Shown here: positions 6,203 to 31,807 of the stretch, in pieces
How the letters are laid out: every line of letters starts with the position of its first letter
How positions within the stretch are numbered: the stretch's first letter is position 1
Source of the DNA: Ignavibacteria bacterium
GTDB taxonomy: Bacteria > Bacteroidota > Ignavibacteria > Ignavibacteriales > SURF-24
Direction of reading: 5' to 3'
Length of the DNA stretch: 64,000 bases
NCBI GenBank assembly: GCA_025612375.1
Contig: JAAXKN010000001.1
Location: forward strand, 228,669 to 292,668
The notes under the pieces: generated by a model
What the model was told of the DNA's origin: nothing
Seen by the model: only the letters and a program-made list of their open reading frames with translations
Databases searched by the model: none
Translations under genes and position numbers: made by a program

Positions 6203-8293
6203 TTACTCTTCTTCTCTTGATTTCTTGTATTCTTCGATAACCTTTGCTTCAACTTCCTTGGGAACTTCCTCATAGAAAGCGAACTTCATCTTATAGAGTC
6301 CGCGACCTGAAGTAAGGCTTCTTAAGTGAGTTGAGTACCTGTAGAGTTCAGACAATGGAACGTTAGCCTTAATGATCTGGAAGGGGCCTTCTGAATCCAT
6401 GCCGAGGATCTTGCCGCGGCGGCTGGAGAGGTTGCCCATAACGTCGCCCATGAACTCTTCTGGAACGGTTACTTCAACTTCGTAGATCGGTTCCAGGAGA
6501 ACAGGTTTGGCTTCCATGAAGCCTTTCTTGAAGCCCTGGGAGGCAGCGATCTTAAACGACATTTCATCTGAATCCACGTCGTGGTATGAACCGAAGAACA
6601 AAGTAGCCTTGATGTCAATTACCTTTGAGCCTGTAAGAATACCCTTCTGCATTGTTTCAATTATACCTTTTTCAACTGCAGGGATAAACCTTCCTGGAAT
6701 AACGCCGCCAACGATGGCGTTAACGAATTCGAAGCCGGTACCTCTCGGTACGGGTTCAAGCTTCATTACAACGTGACCGTACTGGCCGCGTCCGCCTGAT
6801 TGTTTCTTGTGTTTATATTCAACGTTTTCGCAGATTCCCTTAATGGTTTCGCGGTACGGGATCCTGGGTTCGGCAAGATCCACATCCACGCCGTAGCGGT
6901 CCTTAAGGAGTTTTACGGCAAGTGAAAGCTGAAGTTCGCCCTGGCCTGAGACTATAGTCTGGCTCAGTTCAGGATCAAACTTTACGCTGAATGTAGGATC
7001 TTCCTCGTGCAGCGTATGCAGGCCGGCCGAGATCTTGTCCTCATCGCCCTTGGCCTTGGGTATAATTGCGCTGCTTATAATAGCATCCGGGAATTTGATC
7101 GGGGTAAGTATAACCGGGAAATTCTTTGAGGACAATGTATTATTTGTATGGGTGTCCTTCAGTTTAACTACTGCACCTATGTCGCCGGCGTGGACTTTCT
7201 GAGCGTCCTTTCTGTTCTTTCCGTTAAGGAAGAAAAGCTGGCTTAATCTTTCAGTCTTGCCGTTGTTTTCGTTCATAAGATCCAGGCCTGCCTGGACTGT
7301 GCCCGAGAACACCTTAAAAACTGAAAGTTCGCCCACGTGTGACTCAGAGAGTGTCTTAAATACAAAAAGCACAGGTTCAGCCTTATCGTCTACAGGAACC
7401 TTAACCTTCTGTTCCTTATCCTTAAACTTGCCTTCAACATTATCCCTTTCGGCCGGTGAAGGGAAATATTTGGCTGCAAAGTCGAGGAAGTTATTCAGAC
7501 CCACGCCCTTAAGGGCGCTGACTGCAAAAGCGGGCACGATGCCGTTTTTCATGACAGCGGTTTTGAGCCCCTTCTGGAGTTCGTCTTCAGTAAGAGTGCC
7601 GTTTTCAAAAAACTTATTCAGCAGGTCCTCATCGCTTTCAGCAACTTTTTCAATAAGGGCTTCCCTCATTGCTTCAGCCTCAGGCTTAATATCGCCGGGA
7701 ATATCGCACTCAGTTACTTTTTTACTTCCTGCAGGTCCGTAGGTATAAGCTTTCATACTGATAAGGTCAATAACAGTATCAAAATTTACACCTTCTTTTG
7801 CAGGTATTGTAACTGCAGTAACGTCGGGCGACAATCTTTCCTTTGCCATTTCAATTGTCTGGCTGAACTTGGAGTGTTCATTATCAACTTTATTGATAAG
7901 AACAGCAGCAGGCAGGTTATATTCTTTTACGAAGTTCCATGTAGCCTCTGAGCCGACTTCAACACCTTCGGCAGATTTCAGTACAGCCACAGCAGTATCA
8001 GCTATATGAAGAGCGCTTTTAACCTGCCCAATAAAGTCTGAATAACCGGGTGTATCTAAAATGTTGATTTTTGTATTATTCCATTCGATATGAAGAGGAG
8101 TAGCAGAAATAGAGATTTGTCTTTCGATTTCGTTGGCATTATAATCCGAAGTCGTATTACCTTCTTCAATTTTGCCAATACGATTAATTTCACCACCAGT
8201 GAACAGAATCAATTCAGATAGAGAAGTTTTACCGCTTCCGCCATGACCGATGAACGCAATATTCCGGATAGAATCCGATCCGTATTCTTTCAA
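6203..8293 (-). CDS. Elongation factor G-like translational GTPase
   Basis: This 696-aa GTPase has the EF-G domain order: G domain, beta-barrel, domains III-V. G motifs are GHGGSGKTS (P-loop, where canonical EF-G has AHIDAGKT), DTPGYSDF and INKVD. Domain IV contains GGRGQYGHVVMKLEPVPRG and domain V LSSRRGKILGM. The switch-II residue that is catalytic His in EF-G and EF-Tu is Tyr here, as in the EF-G-like subfamily, so this is probably not the main translocase. The start is TTG, fixed by GGAGG six bases upstream. No rpsL/rpsG/tuf neighbours are present. Confidence 0.9.
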   Translation of the reverse strand: MKEYGSDSIRNIAFIGHGGSGKTSLSELILFTGGEINRIGKIEEGNTTSDYNANEIERQISISATPLHIEWNNTKINILDTPGYSDFIGQVKSALHIADTAVAVLKSAEGVEVGSEATWNFVKEYNLPAAVLINKVDNEHSKFSQTIEMAKERLSPDVTAVTIPAKEGVNFDTVIDLISMKAYTYGPAGSKKVTECDIPGDIKPEAEAMREALIEKVAESDEDLLNKFFENGTLTEDELQKGLKTAVMKNGIVPAFAVSALKGVGLNNFLDFAAKYFPSPAERDNVEGKFKDKEQKVKVPVDDKAEPVLFVFKTLSESHVGELSVFKVFSGTVQAGLDLMNENNGKTERLSQLFFLNGKNRKDAQKVHAGDIGAVVKLKDTHTNNTLSSKNFPVILTPIKFPDAIISSAIIPKAKGDEDKISAGLHTLHEEDPTFSVKFDPELSQTIVSGQGELQLSLAVKLLKDRYGVDVDLAEPRIPYRETIKGICENVEYKHKKQSGGRGQYGHVVMKLEPVPRGTGFEFVNAIVGGVIPGRFIPAVEKGIIETMQKGILTGSKVIDIKATLFFGSYHDVDSDEMSFKIAASQGFKKGFMEAKPVLLEPIYEVEVTVPEEFMGDVMGNLSSRRGKILGMDSEGPFQIIKANVPLSELYRYSTHLRSLTSGRGLYKMKFAFYEEVPKEVEAKVIEEYKKSREEE

Positions 8294-8328
8294 GTGAGAC
8301 CTCCACTAAATTAAAATTTACCCTTAAT

Positions 8329-8721
8329 TTATTTATTTTTTAGAGTACCCCAAAAGGCAGATATTCCGCGGGAAATTCCAACTACTTTCCTGAAAACATC
8401 TCCCCCCGGACTATCTCCCACACTTGCTTTGATTCGTTTAGTTTTGTCCAGAAGATCTTCAGCTTTATCCTTTAAGTTTTCGATTAATACTTTTACTGCC
8501 GAAATAACAGATTCAACCTCTTCGGTAACAAGGGCCACCTTGCCTGTAATAATGTTAACGTTGGCAAGAATAGGTTCCACATTTCCCTTTATCTGTTCGA
8601 CATCCTTCTGTAGGGCCGCAATTGTCTTTGTAACCTGTTTAAGGGTAATTATAAGATAAATGCACAGAATTGATGCCGCAATCAGCAAAATAATCAGAAA
8701 GATATTCAACGCTGTATCCAT
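8329..8721 (-). CDS. DUF948-like single-pass membrane protein
   Basis: This is a 130-aa protein with one N-terminal transmembrane helix (about residues 5-27). A long amphipathic, Val/Ile/Lys-rich coiled-coil region follows (30-110), then a short basic tail. This resembles the DUF948 family, often encoded next to YtxH proteins in envelope-stress contexts. Here the YtxH gene is directly upstream (8848-9231) and the EF-G-like gene begins 35 bp downstream. The biochemical role is unknown. Confidence 0.7.
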   Translation of the reverse strand: MDTALNIFLIILLIAASILCIYLIITLKQVTKTIAALQKDVEQIKGNVEPILANVNIITGKVALVTEEVESVISAVKVLIENLKDKAEDLLDKTKRIKASVGDSPGGDVFRKVVGISRGISAFWGTLKNK

Positions 8722-8847
8722 AGTTCAATCTCCCTGCCTTAATGACGAGGCTTTAAGTTAGATAATAATTAGACTCATCCTCTAAAATCAAACAGATCTG
8801 CATCTTAAGAATAACGCAGCCAGAAAAAAATAGTTGCTTTTCGGATT

Positions 8848-9231
8848 TTAAGAATTCTGTTCGTTCCTGTATGCATCAAGCCCCGCCTTGAAAGCGCTTT
8901 TGAGCTTGTCGCCTTCGTCGCCGGCCAAATTCTTTGCATTATCAAGAGCCTTCTCTGCATCCTGAAGCAAGCCCTCTACTTTAACTCTGGCGTCAGAAAT
9001 CAGCTTTTCAGATTTTTTTTTCCCATCGTTGATAAGTTCCACGGCTTTAACCTTAGCGTCGGCAAGGTACTGTTCAGCCTCCCCCATAAATTCGTCAGTT
9101 TTGTCCTTAATGTCGCGTCTGAGTTCCTTGCCGCTTTTAGGAGCGTACAGGAGAGCGACGATTGAACCTACAACTGAACCGGTTATTAAACCTATTAATA
9201 ATCCTTTTCCCAGACCGTTATCTCTGGACAT
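8848..9231 (-). CDS. YtxH domain membrane protein
   Basis: The 127-aa protein starts with a glycine-rich transmembrane segment and the YtxH signature, GLLIGLITGSVVGSIVALLY then APKSGKELRRDI. A long Ala/Lys/Asp-rich helical tail follows, predicted to be coiled coil. YtxH proteins are small stress-associated envelope proteins of unknown mechanism. The start is well set by GAGGAGG seven bases upstream. Two further YtxH genes lie at 50.6 and 51.2 kb. Confidence 0.85.
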   Translation of the reverse strand: MSRDNGLGKGLLIGLITGSVVGSIVALLYAPKSGKELRRDIKDKTDEFMGEAEQYLADAKVKAVELINDGKKKSEKLISDARVKVEGLLQDAEKALDNAKNLAGDEGDKLKSAFKAGLDAYRNEQNS

Positions 9232-9260
9232 GGTGCCTCCTCAATTTTAATAGTTTTGTT

Positions 9261-9289
9261 AAAATAAGAAGTCCACTTTTGAAAATCAA
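9261..9289 (-). promoter_or_regulatory. Probable sigma-70 promoter of the YtxH gene
   Basis: Reading the minus strand, TTGATT (9284-9289) and TATTTT (9261-9266) are separated by exactly 17 bp. It lies 30-58 bp upstream of the YtxH start and inside the hairpin that ends icd. Confidence 0.55.
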
Positions 9290-9310
9290 CATAATGGATA
9301 AAGTGGACTT
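9269..9310 (-). terminator. Probable terminator after icd
   Basis: The ten-base arms AAGTCCACTT and AAGTGGACTT pair perfectly across a 22-base loop, 24 bp after the icd stop. The minus-strand tail (CTTATTTT) is only moderately T-rich. The left arm overlaps the promoter of the next gene. Confidence 0.6.
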
Positions 9311-9333
9311 ATTTATTTTATATTATATCAAAT

Positions 9334-10587
9334 TTACTTCATATTATCTACAATTGCACGCGCAAATTCTGAAGATTTTACCTCTTTTGCGCCCGTCATA
9401 AGGCGTGCGAAGTCATAGGTCACAACTTTTGACTTAATGGTTTTGGTCATTGCCTTTTCAATCAGCTTTGCAGCCTCATTCCACCCCATATATTCAAACA
9501 TCATTACACCCGACAAAATGACTGAACCGGGATTGATCTTATCCAGTCCGGCATATTTGGGAGCTGTTCCGTGGGTCGCCTCAAAAAGAGCGACGTGGTA
9601 GCTGATGTTTGCGCCCGGAGCAATACCAAGGCCGCCTACCTGTGCTGCTGCGGCGTCTGAAAGGTAATCGCCGTTAAGATTAGGTGTTGCAACGACGTCA
9701 TACTCACTGGGTCTTAACAAGAGCTGCTGGAACATGCTGTCTGCAATTCTGTCCTTAATAAGGAGTTTGCCTTCGGGCATTTTGCCATTATATTTTGAAG
9801 AAAGTTCTTCTTCAGTTACAATTACGTCTGCGTAGTCTTCTTTGGCAGCCTTATAGCCCCATTCCTTGAATGAGCCTTCTGTAAACTTCATTATGTTGCC
9901 TTTATGGACCAGGGTAACGCTTTTCCTACCGTTAGCCAGGGCGTAGTCGATTGCCTTTTTAACGAGGCGTTTTGAGCCGAATTCGCTCATAGGCTTTATG
10001 CCGATACCTGAATCCGGGCGGACTTCCTTCTTAAGGTCCTTTTCGAGCATTTCAATTATCTTATTTGCTTCCTTAGAGCCTGCCTTGAATTCAATACCGG
10101 CATAAACGTCTTCAGTATTTTCCCTGAAGAGTACGATATTGAGGTCCTGGGGGCGTTTCATGGGGCTCGGGGTTCCGGCATAGTATTTAACCGGCCTTAC
10201 GCAGGCAAACAGGTCGAGTTTCTGTCTTAAGGTAACGTTCAGGCTTCTGATTCCGCCGCCGATCGGGGTTGTAAGGGGGCCTTTGATTGCAACAACAAAT
10301 TCCCCGATTGCCTTAATTGTTTCATTAGGGAGCCACTGGTTTTTCCCATAAACTTTAGTTGCTTTCTCGCCGGCATAGATTTCCATCCACGAGATTTTTC
10401 TTTTACCTTTATACGCTTTTTCAACTGCAGCGTCGAAGACTATCTTTGAAGCTTTCCAGATATCGGGACCTGTGCCGTCGCCCTCGATAAAAGGGATGAC
10501 CGGGTTATCGGGAACGACCAGTTTGTCGTTCTGGATGGTAATTTTAGCACCTTCGCTGGGGATGCTGATATTCTTAAATTTTGCCAT
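9334..10587 (-). CDS. icd: Isocitrate dehydrogenase, NADP-dependent
   Basis: This TCA-cycle enzyme converts isocitrate to 2-oxoglutarate and CO2. The 417 aa align in order with the Escherichia coli Icd type: [34 protein letters not shown] with the substrate serine at 115, [48 protein letters not shown] and [11 protein letters not shown]. The KY pair in APKYAG and the YDFARLM segment keep the residues that select NADP over NAD. AGGAG precedes the ATG at 10587. It appears to be transcribed alone, between a membrane protein gene and ytxH. Confidence 0.96.
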
Positions 10588-26752: not shown

Positions 26753-26905
26753 ATGACAAAAGAAAAACGAAAGCGCAAGCCTCTTACAGACACTGAACTA
26801 AGACAGAGGTTAAAAGAGCTCCAGAAGGAGAACGAGTACCTGAGGACGTACATGGATATTTTCAGGACACAGCTGATGGCAGAGCTCAGGAAACCGACGA
26901 TATAG
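26753..26905 (+). CDS. 50-aa basic/leucine-zipper miniprotein (putative)
   Basis: A 50-codon ORF starts at ATG 26753 and ends with TAG at 26905. It opens with a basic block (KEKRKRKP) and continues as a heptad helix with core positions L16, L20, L23, N27, L30, M34, F37. The single Asn at a core position is a hallmark of parallel dimeric zippers. A GGGGGGA tract lies about 14 bases upstream, too far for an ideal ribosome site. It could be a small DNA-binding dimer, or a relic of an IS3-type OrfA, whose C-terminus also has KEN...L zippers. Confidence 0.5.
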   Translation: MTKEKRKRKPLTDTELRQRLKELQKENEYLRTYMDIFRTQLMAELRKPTI

Positions 26906-27140: not shown

Positions 27141-27147
27141 AAGATTG

Positions 27148-27220
27148 CTGCCCCGCCAGGGCTCGAACCTGGACTTTTCTGATCCAGAGTCAGACGTGTT
27201 GCCAATTACACCACAGGGCA
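27148..27220 (-). tRNA. tRNA-Gln (anticodon CTG)
   Basis: The cloverleaf is complete on the minus strand: acceptor TGCCCTG/CGGGGCA, D stem GTGT/ACAC, anticodon stem TCTGA/TCAGA with loop CTCTGGA (anticodon CTG), T stem CCAGG/CCTGG with TTCGAGC loop, discriminator G. CCA is not encoded. It reads codon CAG. Its own promoter and terminator can be seen on either side, so it is a single-gene unit. Confidence 0.95.
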
Positions 27221-27232
27221 ATTGTGTCTACA

Positions 27233-27260
27233 AATATAATAAAAGTTCTTAGTAAATCAA
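27233..27260 (-). promoter_or_regulatory. Promoter of tRNA-Gln
   Basis: On the minus strand, TTGATT (27255-27260) and TATATT (27233-27238) are 16 bp apart. The -10 box ends 12 bp before the mature 5' end. Confidence 0.7.
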
Positions 27261-27378
27261 AAGAATTTTATGCGGGATTTTTTCATTTTTTAAGATAAAA
27301 TTATGCATTTTTTTTGTGATCCTTCTCTCAAAAAATGCTTCAGCTTGTTTTCCTTTTCTTTTCTTACTGATTTGGTGC

Positions 27379-27407
27379 TTGACAGTTCTATAAAGACTTC
27401 ATATCTT
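27379..27407 (+). promoter_or_regulatory. Consensus promoter in an otherwise empty intergenic region
   Basis: A perfect -35 box TTGACA (27379-27384) and TATCTT (27402-27407) are separated by 17 bp on the plus strand, preceded by a T/C-rich stretch. No annotated gene lies downstream on this strand before the terminator at 27608. Confidence 0.65.
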
Positions 27408-27413
27408 ATAGTT

Positions 27414-27646
27414 GTAAGGCATCCGGAGCCTTGCTGTTGAAATTGATATCACTTTCAACATTTAATTCCTTAATATTAGTTTTCTTTCACTAGTATGGAG
27501 GGAATGAATGGTAGAAGAAAAGGCAGAAAAACATATTGATTAGTTTTTTACCGGTCAGCAAAGGCTAAGCCGGTTGAAAAAGTAATTCAAATATTAGATA
27601 ATTTATGCTGGAGAAGCCTTAAAAAAGCTTCTCCAGATTTTATTTT
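27414..27646 (+). ncRNA. Candidate structured small RNA (about 230 nt), possibly with a micro-ORF
   Basis: The stretch fills most of the 456-bp gap between tRNA-Gln and the next minus-strand gene. It begins just after a consensus promoter. It contains hairpins at 27416-27432 (AAGGC/GCCTT), 27435-27460 (TGTTGAAA/TTTCAACA, 8 bp perfect) and 27550-27574 (ACCGG/CCGGT with inner AGC/GCT). It ends in a strong intrinsic terminator. An 11-codon ORF (27508-27543, MVEEKAEKHID) has GGAGGG at 5-6 bases spacing. I recognise no known family: it does not look like SRP RNA, tmRNA, RNase P or a clear 6S RNA. No expression evidence is available. Confidence 0.5.
27608..27646 (+). terminator. Strong intrinsic terminator, plus strand
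   Basis: A ten-base perfect stem, CTGGAGAAGC/GCTTCTCCAG, with a nine-base loop is followed by ATTTTATTTT. The T-rich tail exists only in the plus direction, so it cannot serve the minus-strand gene at 27677. Confidence 0.8.
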
Positions 27647-30760: not shown

Positions 30761-30916
30761 AAGGGCTCCATAAGTTGTTATTATCACTGAGGTAAGTTAA
30801 TGAATCTCCCCAAAAATTCAAAGGGCTATAAACAAATTATTCATCCTTGCACTCCCGGTGCCGGAAGATTATATCCGTTGCCTTTCTCAGAAGGACTTTG
30901 TACTTTGCAGATCATG

Positions 30917-31807
30917 ATGAGAAATTTTTTAACAGCATTATTCCTTTGCGGAATTATTTTTACTTCCGCTTACTCCCAGACTTATGAATTTGCAGGTGAG
31001 CTGGGGCATTTCCAGGGAGCCTCGTCATTTTCTGTAAGCCCAATAGGCTTTCTTTATGTAGCCGATGCCGCAACAAATGAAATCCATAAGCTCGACCTGA
31101 CGGGAAACGAGGTAAGATTTATTGGGGGCTACGGCTGGGATGAATCGGCTTTTGATGATCCCGTGGATGTATTCTCCACCACGCTTAACGTCTACGTATC
31201 CGACAGGAATAACCACAGGGTGCAGGTCTTTGACAGGGATCTTAATTTTGCTGCCACTGTTCAGGCGCGCGGTGACGAGAGCCGGAACAGAAATAATACA
31301 AACACCGATTCAGACGGCAACATAACCTTTGGATATCCCACCTGCTCGTCAGTCTCAACTCAGGGGGATATGTACATACTTGATTCTGAAAATAAAAGGA
31401 TACTGAAGTTCAACATTTCAGGCGAGTACGCTCTTCAGTTCGGGAATTACCGCTCGGGTGAATACGCCCTTAGTAATCCCCAGAAGTTTGCAATTTCGCA
31501 GGATAACAGGATCTATGCCCTGGATGAGTCAGGTTTGGTAATTTTCGATCAGTTCGGCACAGGGCTTGCAAAGGTTCCTACAGAAGTATCTTTCAGGAGC
31601 ATTAATATCACCTTCAACAATCTTGTTTTAACTTCCTCCGATAGGGTATTTACCGCAGATCTGAACGAGAAAGAGGTGCAGTTTAAGGAAGTGCACCTCA
31701 CAGGGTTTGAAGCCGGCAGTGAAATTGTTGCCGGACTAATCTTTAAGGGGAATTTGTACGTACTTACGCAGAAACAGATAGCCGTATTTAAAATAAAAAA
31801 AGGCTGA
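30917..31807 (+). CDS. Secreted NHL/six-bladed propeller-like protein
   Basis: About 296 aa with a signal peptide (MRNFLTALFLCGIIFTSAYS) followed by NHL-like blades: FLYVADAATNEIHKLDLTG, DVFSTTLNVYVSDRNNHRVQ, DMYILDSENKRILKFN and NRIYALDESGLVIFD. This is a six-bladed beta-propeller pattern without enzyme motifs. The frame is open from 30800, but only the ATGs at 30914/30917 open on the signal peptide. It has no T9SS domain, in contrast to its neighbours. The function is unknown, perhaps ligand or glycan binding at the envelope. Confidence 0.72.
   Translation: MRNFLTALFLCGIIFTSAYSQTYEFAGELGHFQGASSFSVSPIGFLYVADAATNEIHKLDLTGNEVRFIGGYGWDESAFDDPVDVFSTTLNVYVSDRNNHRVQVFDRDLNFAATVQARGDESRNRNNTNTDSDGNITFGYPTCSSVSTQGDMYILDSENKRILKFNISGEYALQFGNYRSGEYALSNPQKFAISQDNRIYALDESGLVIFDQFGTGLAKVPTEVSFRSINITFNNLVLTSSDRVFTADLNEKEVQFKEVHLTGFEAGSEIVAGLIFKGNLYVLTQKQIAVFKIKKG

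Follow-up and report, generated by a model that had tools for sequence, protein, structure and literature searches.

The segment from position 27379 to 27646 on the plus strand of the window, the 64,000-nucleotide stretch of Ignavibacteria bacterium DNA analyzed here, is a well-supported candidate for a free-standing small RNA (sRNA) gene, belonging to a family of the Ignavibacteriales that is absent from Rfam. Taken as a whole, the best explanation is that the locus represents a new sRNA family whose members would act as mRNA-like, dual-function regulatory RNAs with a mostly occluded ribosome-binding site. We judge this complete reading to be somewhat probable, and its dual-function mechanism is a step that we infer from comparison of the homologous sequences. 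The features of the locus are the following (genomes are designated by G numbers, G000 being that of the window).

27147–27220, minus strand: tRNA-Gln(CTG), divergent neighbor with its own promoter (27260–27231) and its own terminator (27140–27113)
27379–27407, plus strand: sigma-70-like promoter TTGACA-17-TATCTT (TTGACA at 27379–27384, TATCTT at 27402–27407; 10/12)
27414–27646, plus strand: predicted small RNA of about 225–233 nt, based on fold z and on covariance-model homologs in 11 other genomes
27414–27434, plus strand: hairpin H1, GTAAGGC/GCCTTGC, 7 pairs
27435–27460, plus strand: hairpin H2, TGTTGAAA/TTTCAACA, 8 perfect pairs
27459–27510, plus strand: hairpin H3, enclosing the Shine-Dalgarno (SD) sequence and the start codon; 20 pairs with three mismatches, z −4.3
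27497–27502, plus strand: SD sequence GGAGGG; GGAG is invariant in the alignment of 11 homologs
27508–27543, plus strand: micro-ORF MVEEKAEKHID, 11 codons, from ATG at 27508 to TAG at 27543
27531–27537, plus strand: conserved motif ACATATT, little changed in any of the 11 homologs
27538–27587, plus strand: hairpin H4, variable in sequence and conserved in structure; 8/8 counted pairs with double changes
27608–27646, plus strand: intrinsic terminator with T-tail, kept in all homologs

Promoter, terminator and comparison with known RNAs

The predicted RNA lies in a 456-bp gap and the gene that follows it is convergent. A promoter as good as the one found here arises on the plus strand in 15.8% of dinucleotide shuffles of this gap and, taken alone, the promoter is weak evidence. 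The terminator, on the other hand, is a strong element of the locus, beyond chance. Its stem (CTGGAGAAGC/GCTTCTCCAG, 27608–27636) comprises 10 perfect pairs with a 9-nt loop and is followed by ATTTTATTTT, and a comparable plus-strand terminator arises in 0.1% of the shuffles. The loop limit of the site scan was 8, and hence the terminator was missed by that scan. The whole RNA, the 5' end of which (near 27414) was inferred from the sequence, folds with −68.8 kcal/mol (z −5.0, or −5.1 without the terminator). Since the minus strand of the same segment is nearly as stable (z −4.9), fold energy alone cannot assign the strand; the plus strand is indicated by the T-tail, for which no minus-strand counterpart was found at the terminator stem, together with the promoter and the SD sequence, rather than by energy. 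These results bear out an earlier note on this DNA, which had described the promoter in the gap and a terminator with a T-tail on the plus strand only, and had proposed an unannotated, free-standing RNA gene, a proposal that is further supported by the varying neighbors and the diverged relatives reported below.

The same note had recognized no standard RNA in the segment, and a search with the Rfam covariance models agrees, yielding no match above the gathering score for any family, including 6S RNA, tmRNA and the SRP RNA. Like the dual-function sRNAs SgrS, SR1 and RNAIII, the window RNA is free-standing, about 200 nt or longer, equipped with its own promoter and terminator, and carries a short, SD-led ORF, but it shares no sequence or model similarity with them, comes from a different phylum and has a peptide that is barely conserved within its family. 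6S RNA (RF00013), with its Bacteroidota forms, is likewise a structured, free-standing RNA of about 200 nt; nonetheless, no Rfam match to it was obtained at E up to 10, and the window RNA is a row of separate hairpins, while 6S RNA is one long rod with a central bubble. One homologous locus (L131) gave a sub-threshold match to MicC (RF00121; 38.2 bits against a gathering score of 90, E 0.023), which is probably an AT-rich chance match; neither the window copy nor any of the nine further homolog loci that were scanned matched MicC. Finally, leader-peptide attenuators also present an SD sequence, a short ORF, hairpins and an intrinsic terminator in series, but the RNAs of the window family have no conserved downstream gene.

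Homologs in two taxonomic families

BLASTN over 164 genomes of the order recovered only the copy in G001 (MAG bin-C14), the only other genome of the genus, and the remaining matches were AT-rich chance similarities. No match was found in plasmid and phage collections, and exact-pattern scans returned a sole match, JAAXKQ010000017.1 (G001), with none in viral contigs. The block from the tRNA-Gln gene through the sRNA terminator (27147–27641) differs from G001 by one base (99.8% identity over 494 nt), the spacer between tRNA-Gln and promoter being identical as well, and it is sharply bounded at both ends, with flanking genes about 73–78% identical and flanking spacers that do not align. Further identical tracts are shared with G001 elsewhere: 1177 bp at 8169–9345 containing coding genes, with flanks of about 80% identity, and a tract of 119 nt. 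In view of these tracts, ultraconservation of the RNA was dropped as the cause of the identity, which probably reflects recent recombination between lineages, or shared assembly, rather than constraint. As either of these explains it better, the G001 identity was excluded as evidence for the RNA.

A diverged copy was identified at the tRNA-Gln locus of G003, from another genus of the same family, where its position and orientation match those of the window copy. It consists of TTGACA-17-TACATT, AGGAGG, ATG, ACATATTGA, a hairpin and TTTATGCTGGAG..CTCCAG followed by eight T, and agrees with the window copy in promoter spacing, SD sequence, ACATATTGA and the TTTATGCTGGAG terminator start. A first covariance model, built from these two copies only and spanning SD to terminator, matched G004, which belongs to the window's family, and G018 and G025, which belong to another, with E values of about 1e-5 per genome when the 164 genomes were scanned. 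In all three, a TTGA..-17-TAnnTT promoter precedes the SD sequence by 105–113 nt; these predicted promoters lie upstream of the modeled region and are thus an independent confirmation of the homologs at the sequence level. Six more genomes (G017, G019, G024, G014, G077 and G083) were added when the model was refined twice; the match in G083 is weak (E 0.001) but follows the MBL-fold gene that also precedes the RNA in G018, G025, G017 and G019. In total, 11 distinct sequences were obtained from 12 of the 164 genomes, a patchy distribution across two families, with eight of the genomes belonging to the family other than that of the window. A TTGACA/TTGAAA/TTGTAA-17-TAnnTT promoter lies 105–141 nt before the SD sequence in seven of the 10 other homologs, and is weak or was not found in G014, G077 and G083. 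Among 391 genomes of the class, scanned with strict filters, no convincing match was found outside the order; most matches there with E between 1e-3 and 1e-2 covered the terminator only or looked like coding sequence, and these matches were not counted. Also rejected were candidates in G009 (L146) and G084 (L160), as coding or terminator-only, and a match in G139 to the pattern ACATATTGA..GCTGGAG, which lies inside a coding gene.

The genes surrounding the RNA vary. It neighbors tRNA-Gln in G000, G001 and G003, lies downstream of the MBL-fold gene in the five genomes mentioned above and faces a convergent gene, identified by eye as glucose-6-phosphate dehydrogenase, in G018, G025, G017 and G024, with other neighbors in G004, G014 and G077. 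The adjacency to tRNA-Gln that the earlier note had remarked upon holds for the window, but the surface-protein island in which it had placed the RNA is incidental, as relatives adjoin other genes. A synteny check detected no copy after the MBL-fold gene in other genomes of the second family, and the RNA may accordingly be either patchy in distribution or fast in divergence.

Several observations were made in passing around the tRNA-Gln gene. Its minus-strand promoter contains the box TATATTTG, which resembles the −7 consensus of Bacteroidota (TAnnTTTG), and the predicted sRNA promoter, which looks classical sigma-70, is unlike it in this respect. A short coiled-coil-like ORF (MTKEKRKRKPLTDTELRQRLKELQKENEYLRTYMDIFRTQLMAELRKPTI), parts of which are 84–90% conserved in G001, lies at 26753–26905 on the plus strand, below the usual length cut. 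In G022 and G004 (L065 and L069), a beta-propeller-like gene resembling window positions 30800–31807 directly follows tRNA-Gln, an arrangement which suggests that the sRNA and surface-protein genes may have been inserted between these two genes in the window lineage.

Conserved structure and a predicted occluded start site

The covariance search among related Ignavibacteria genomes that the earlier note had proposed as a check thus recovered relatives in 11 other genomes. The note's claim would have fallen had the stems lacked conservation there; the diverged relatives keep them, with compensatory changes. When the 11 sequences are aligned, pairing is possible in 84.4% of cells, against 74.0 when shuffled and at most 48.0 when slid, and 13 of 18 pairs have changes on both sides. 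The double compensatory changes of H4 (see above) are accompanied by others in the terminator (5/10 counted pairs). Because fitting the final alignment to the model structure favors pairing, an alignment-free shuffle test was run as well. In all 11 homologs, the stretch between ACATATT and the terminator, which holds H4, is predicted to be more stable than shuffled versions of itself are on average (z −0.5 to −4.4); the combined Stouffer z over the 11 homologs is −8.2, the significance of which is overstated by the kinship of the sequences. H4 is kept even though its sequence is largely replaced among homologs, and the whole RNAs give z values of −1.2 to −3.9 without the terminator. The homologs have in common the spacing, the SD/start box, the ACATATT motif, H4 and the terminator, with a consensus (alignment A7) that reads CTAAta-AGGAG..tGG-NTG, an A-rich stretch, aACATATT, H4, AA.aAgT and GCcGGAg..CTCC.G-TTTTTT. 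These comparisons support a predicted RNA gene with a terminator and with a structure that selection maintains.

In the 5' half, hairpins analogous to H1 and H2-like hairpins of different sequence are present in G003, G004, G018 and G025. H3 overlaps the base of H2, and the two consequently compete at their boundary. The three hairpins claimed at the outset, including the one with eight pairs (H2), were found, but the count was too low: there are four in addition to the terminator. The 11-codon ORF with a well-spaced GGAGGG was likewise recovered; an alternative reading, MNGRRKGRKTY (ATG at 27504), was rejected, the correct SD spacing being that of the ATG at 27508.

Among the 11 homologs, the start codon, located 5–7 nt after GGAG, is ATG in seven, TTG in two, GTG in one and CTG in one (G083). 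The distance from start to CATATT is mostly 24 nt and 25 nt in G003, G004 and G077, so that the frame differs in these three. The homologous ORFs have 10 to 13 codons, sometimes more, and encode peptides of 10 to 29 residues that show a partial likeness (MVEEKAEKHID, MEEEESNKHIS.., MGKTKSDKHIS, MGKTKSDKHISYL). Nonetheless, the codon differences among the three closest copies (G018, G025 and G017) are all amino-acid changing, and peptide charge flips between homologs. Hence, the start position is broadly kept across the 11 homologs, and peptide and frame only partly. Because of the one-nucleotide frame shift in G003, G004 and G077 and the CTG start in G083, it is doubtful that a conserved peptide is translated. 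The predicted unpaired probability of the SD sequence is below 0.4 in eight of the 11 homologs, this occlusion being absent from the accessibility predictions for G019, G024 and G014; mean predicted accessibility is 0.31 for the SD sequence and 0.32 for the start, as against 0.56 for the A-rich segment and 0.51 for CATATT.

Competing readings and implications

According to the favored explanation, the ribosome-binding site would be mostly hidden in H3, at the beginning of an ORF of 10 to 13 codons (sometimes longer), and H3 might be opened by a ribosome, a partner RNA or a protein. Opening would expose the A-rich/ACAUAUU segment, which could then pair in trans with putative target mRNAs; as an AUG is present in the complement of ACAUAUU, such targets may be bound at their start codons. 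The changes in frame lean towards a function at the RNA level. More tentatively, the RNA could represent an order-specific class of mRNA-like sRNAs in which ribosome binding at the occluded start is regulated and the peptide is largely free to change. The same frame difference between clades, the charge flips, the amino-acid-changing codon differences and the CTG start would also fit a purely non-coding sRNA in which GGAGG and the start codon serve as a binding motif for RNA, protein or the 30S subunit and the peptide is irrelevant. We consider this rather unlikely, given that an ATG, GTG or TTG start at plausible SD spacing is found in 10 of the 11 homologs and that MVEEKAEKHID resembles MEEEESNKHIS and MGKTKSDKHIS. 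If the RNA were instead a small mRNA for a peptide of 10 to 29 residues, with hairpins in its untranslated regions controlling translation, the conserved SD sequence and start, the partly alike peptides of most homologs and the SD occlusion in most of them would be accounted for, but one-base frame changes would not be expected, there is no synonymous excess and the structure 3' of the ORF is better conserved than the peptide, making this reading improbable.

The remaining alternatives are far less likely. The succession of leader-peptide ORF, hairpins and terminator looks like that of a leader or attenuator controlling, in cis, the gene downstream, but the next gene is convergent in the window, G018, G025, G017 and G024 and downstream genes vary; with neighbors that change, are often convergent and include no constant downstream gene, this explanation was excluded as very improbable. 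A short ORF, a sequestered SD sequence and a structured RNA would equally suit the toxin gene of a type I toxin-antitoxin pair, yet the peptides carry charges, are hydrophilic and lack a membrane segment, and the scan of the window copy revealed no antisense transcription unit across it, so that we give this possibility very little credence. Lastly, the near-identity of 27147–27641 to G001 amid sequence of about 73–78% identity, together with the identical 1177-nt coding tract, could point to chance hairpins kept merely through recent sharing of a segment between two species. However, G003, G004 and eight genomes of the other family keep the architecture, which refutes this as a full explanation and leaves it barely credible.

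A literature search of limited breadth found no papers pairing Ignavibacterium with sRNA, and regulatory RNA in Ignavibacteria appears to be hardly studied. Conservation across two families, covariation in a hairpin and a start site that is both conserved and occluded provide a concrete entry point. If true, the occluded-start class would count among the earliest sRNA families reported from Ignavibacteria, and its members would offer a case for asking whether selection keeps ribosome binding rather than the peptide.
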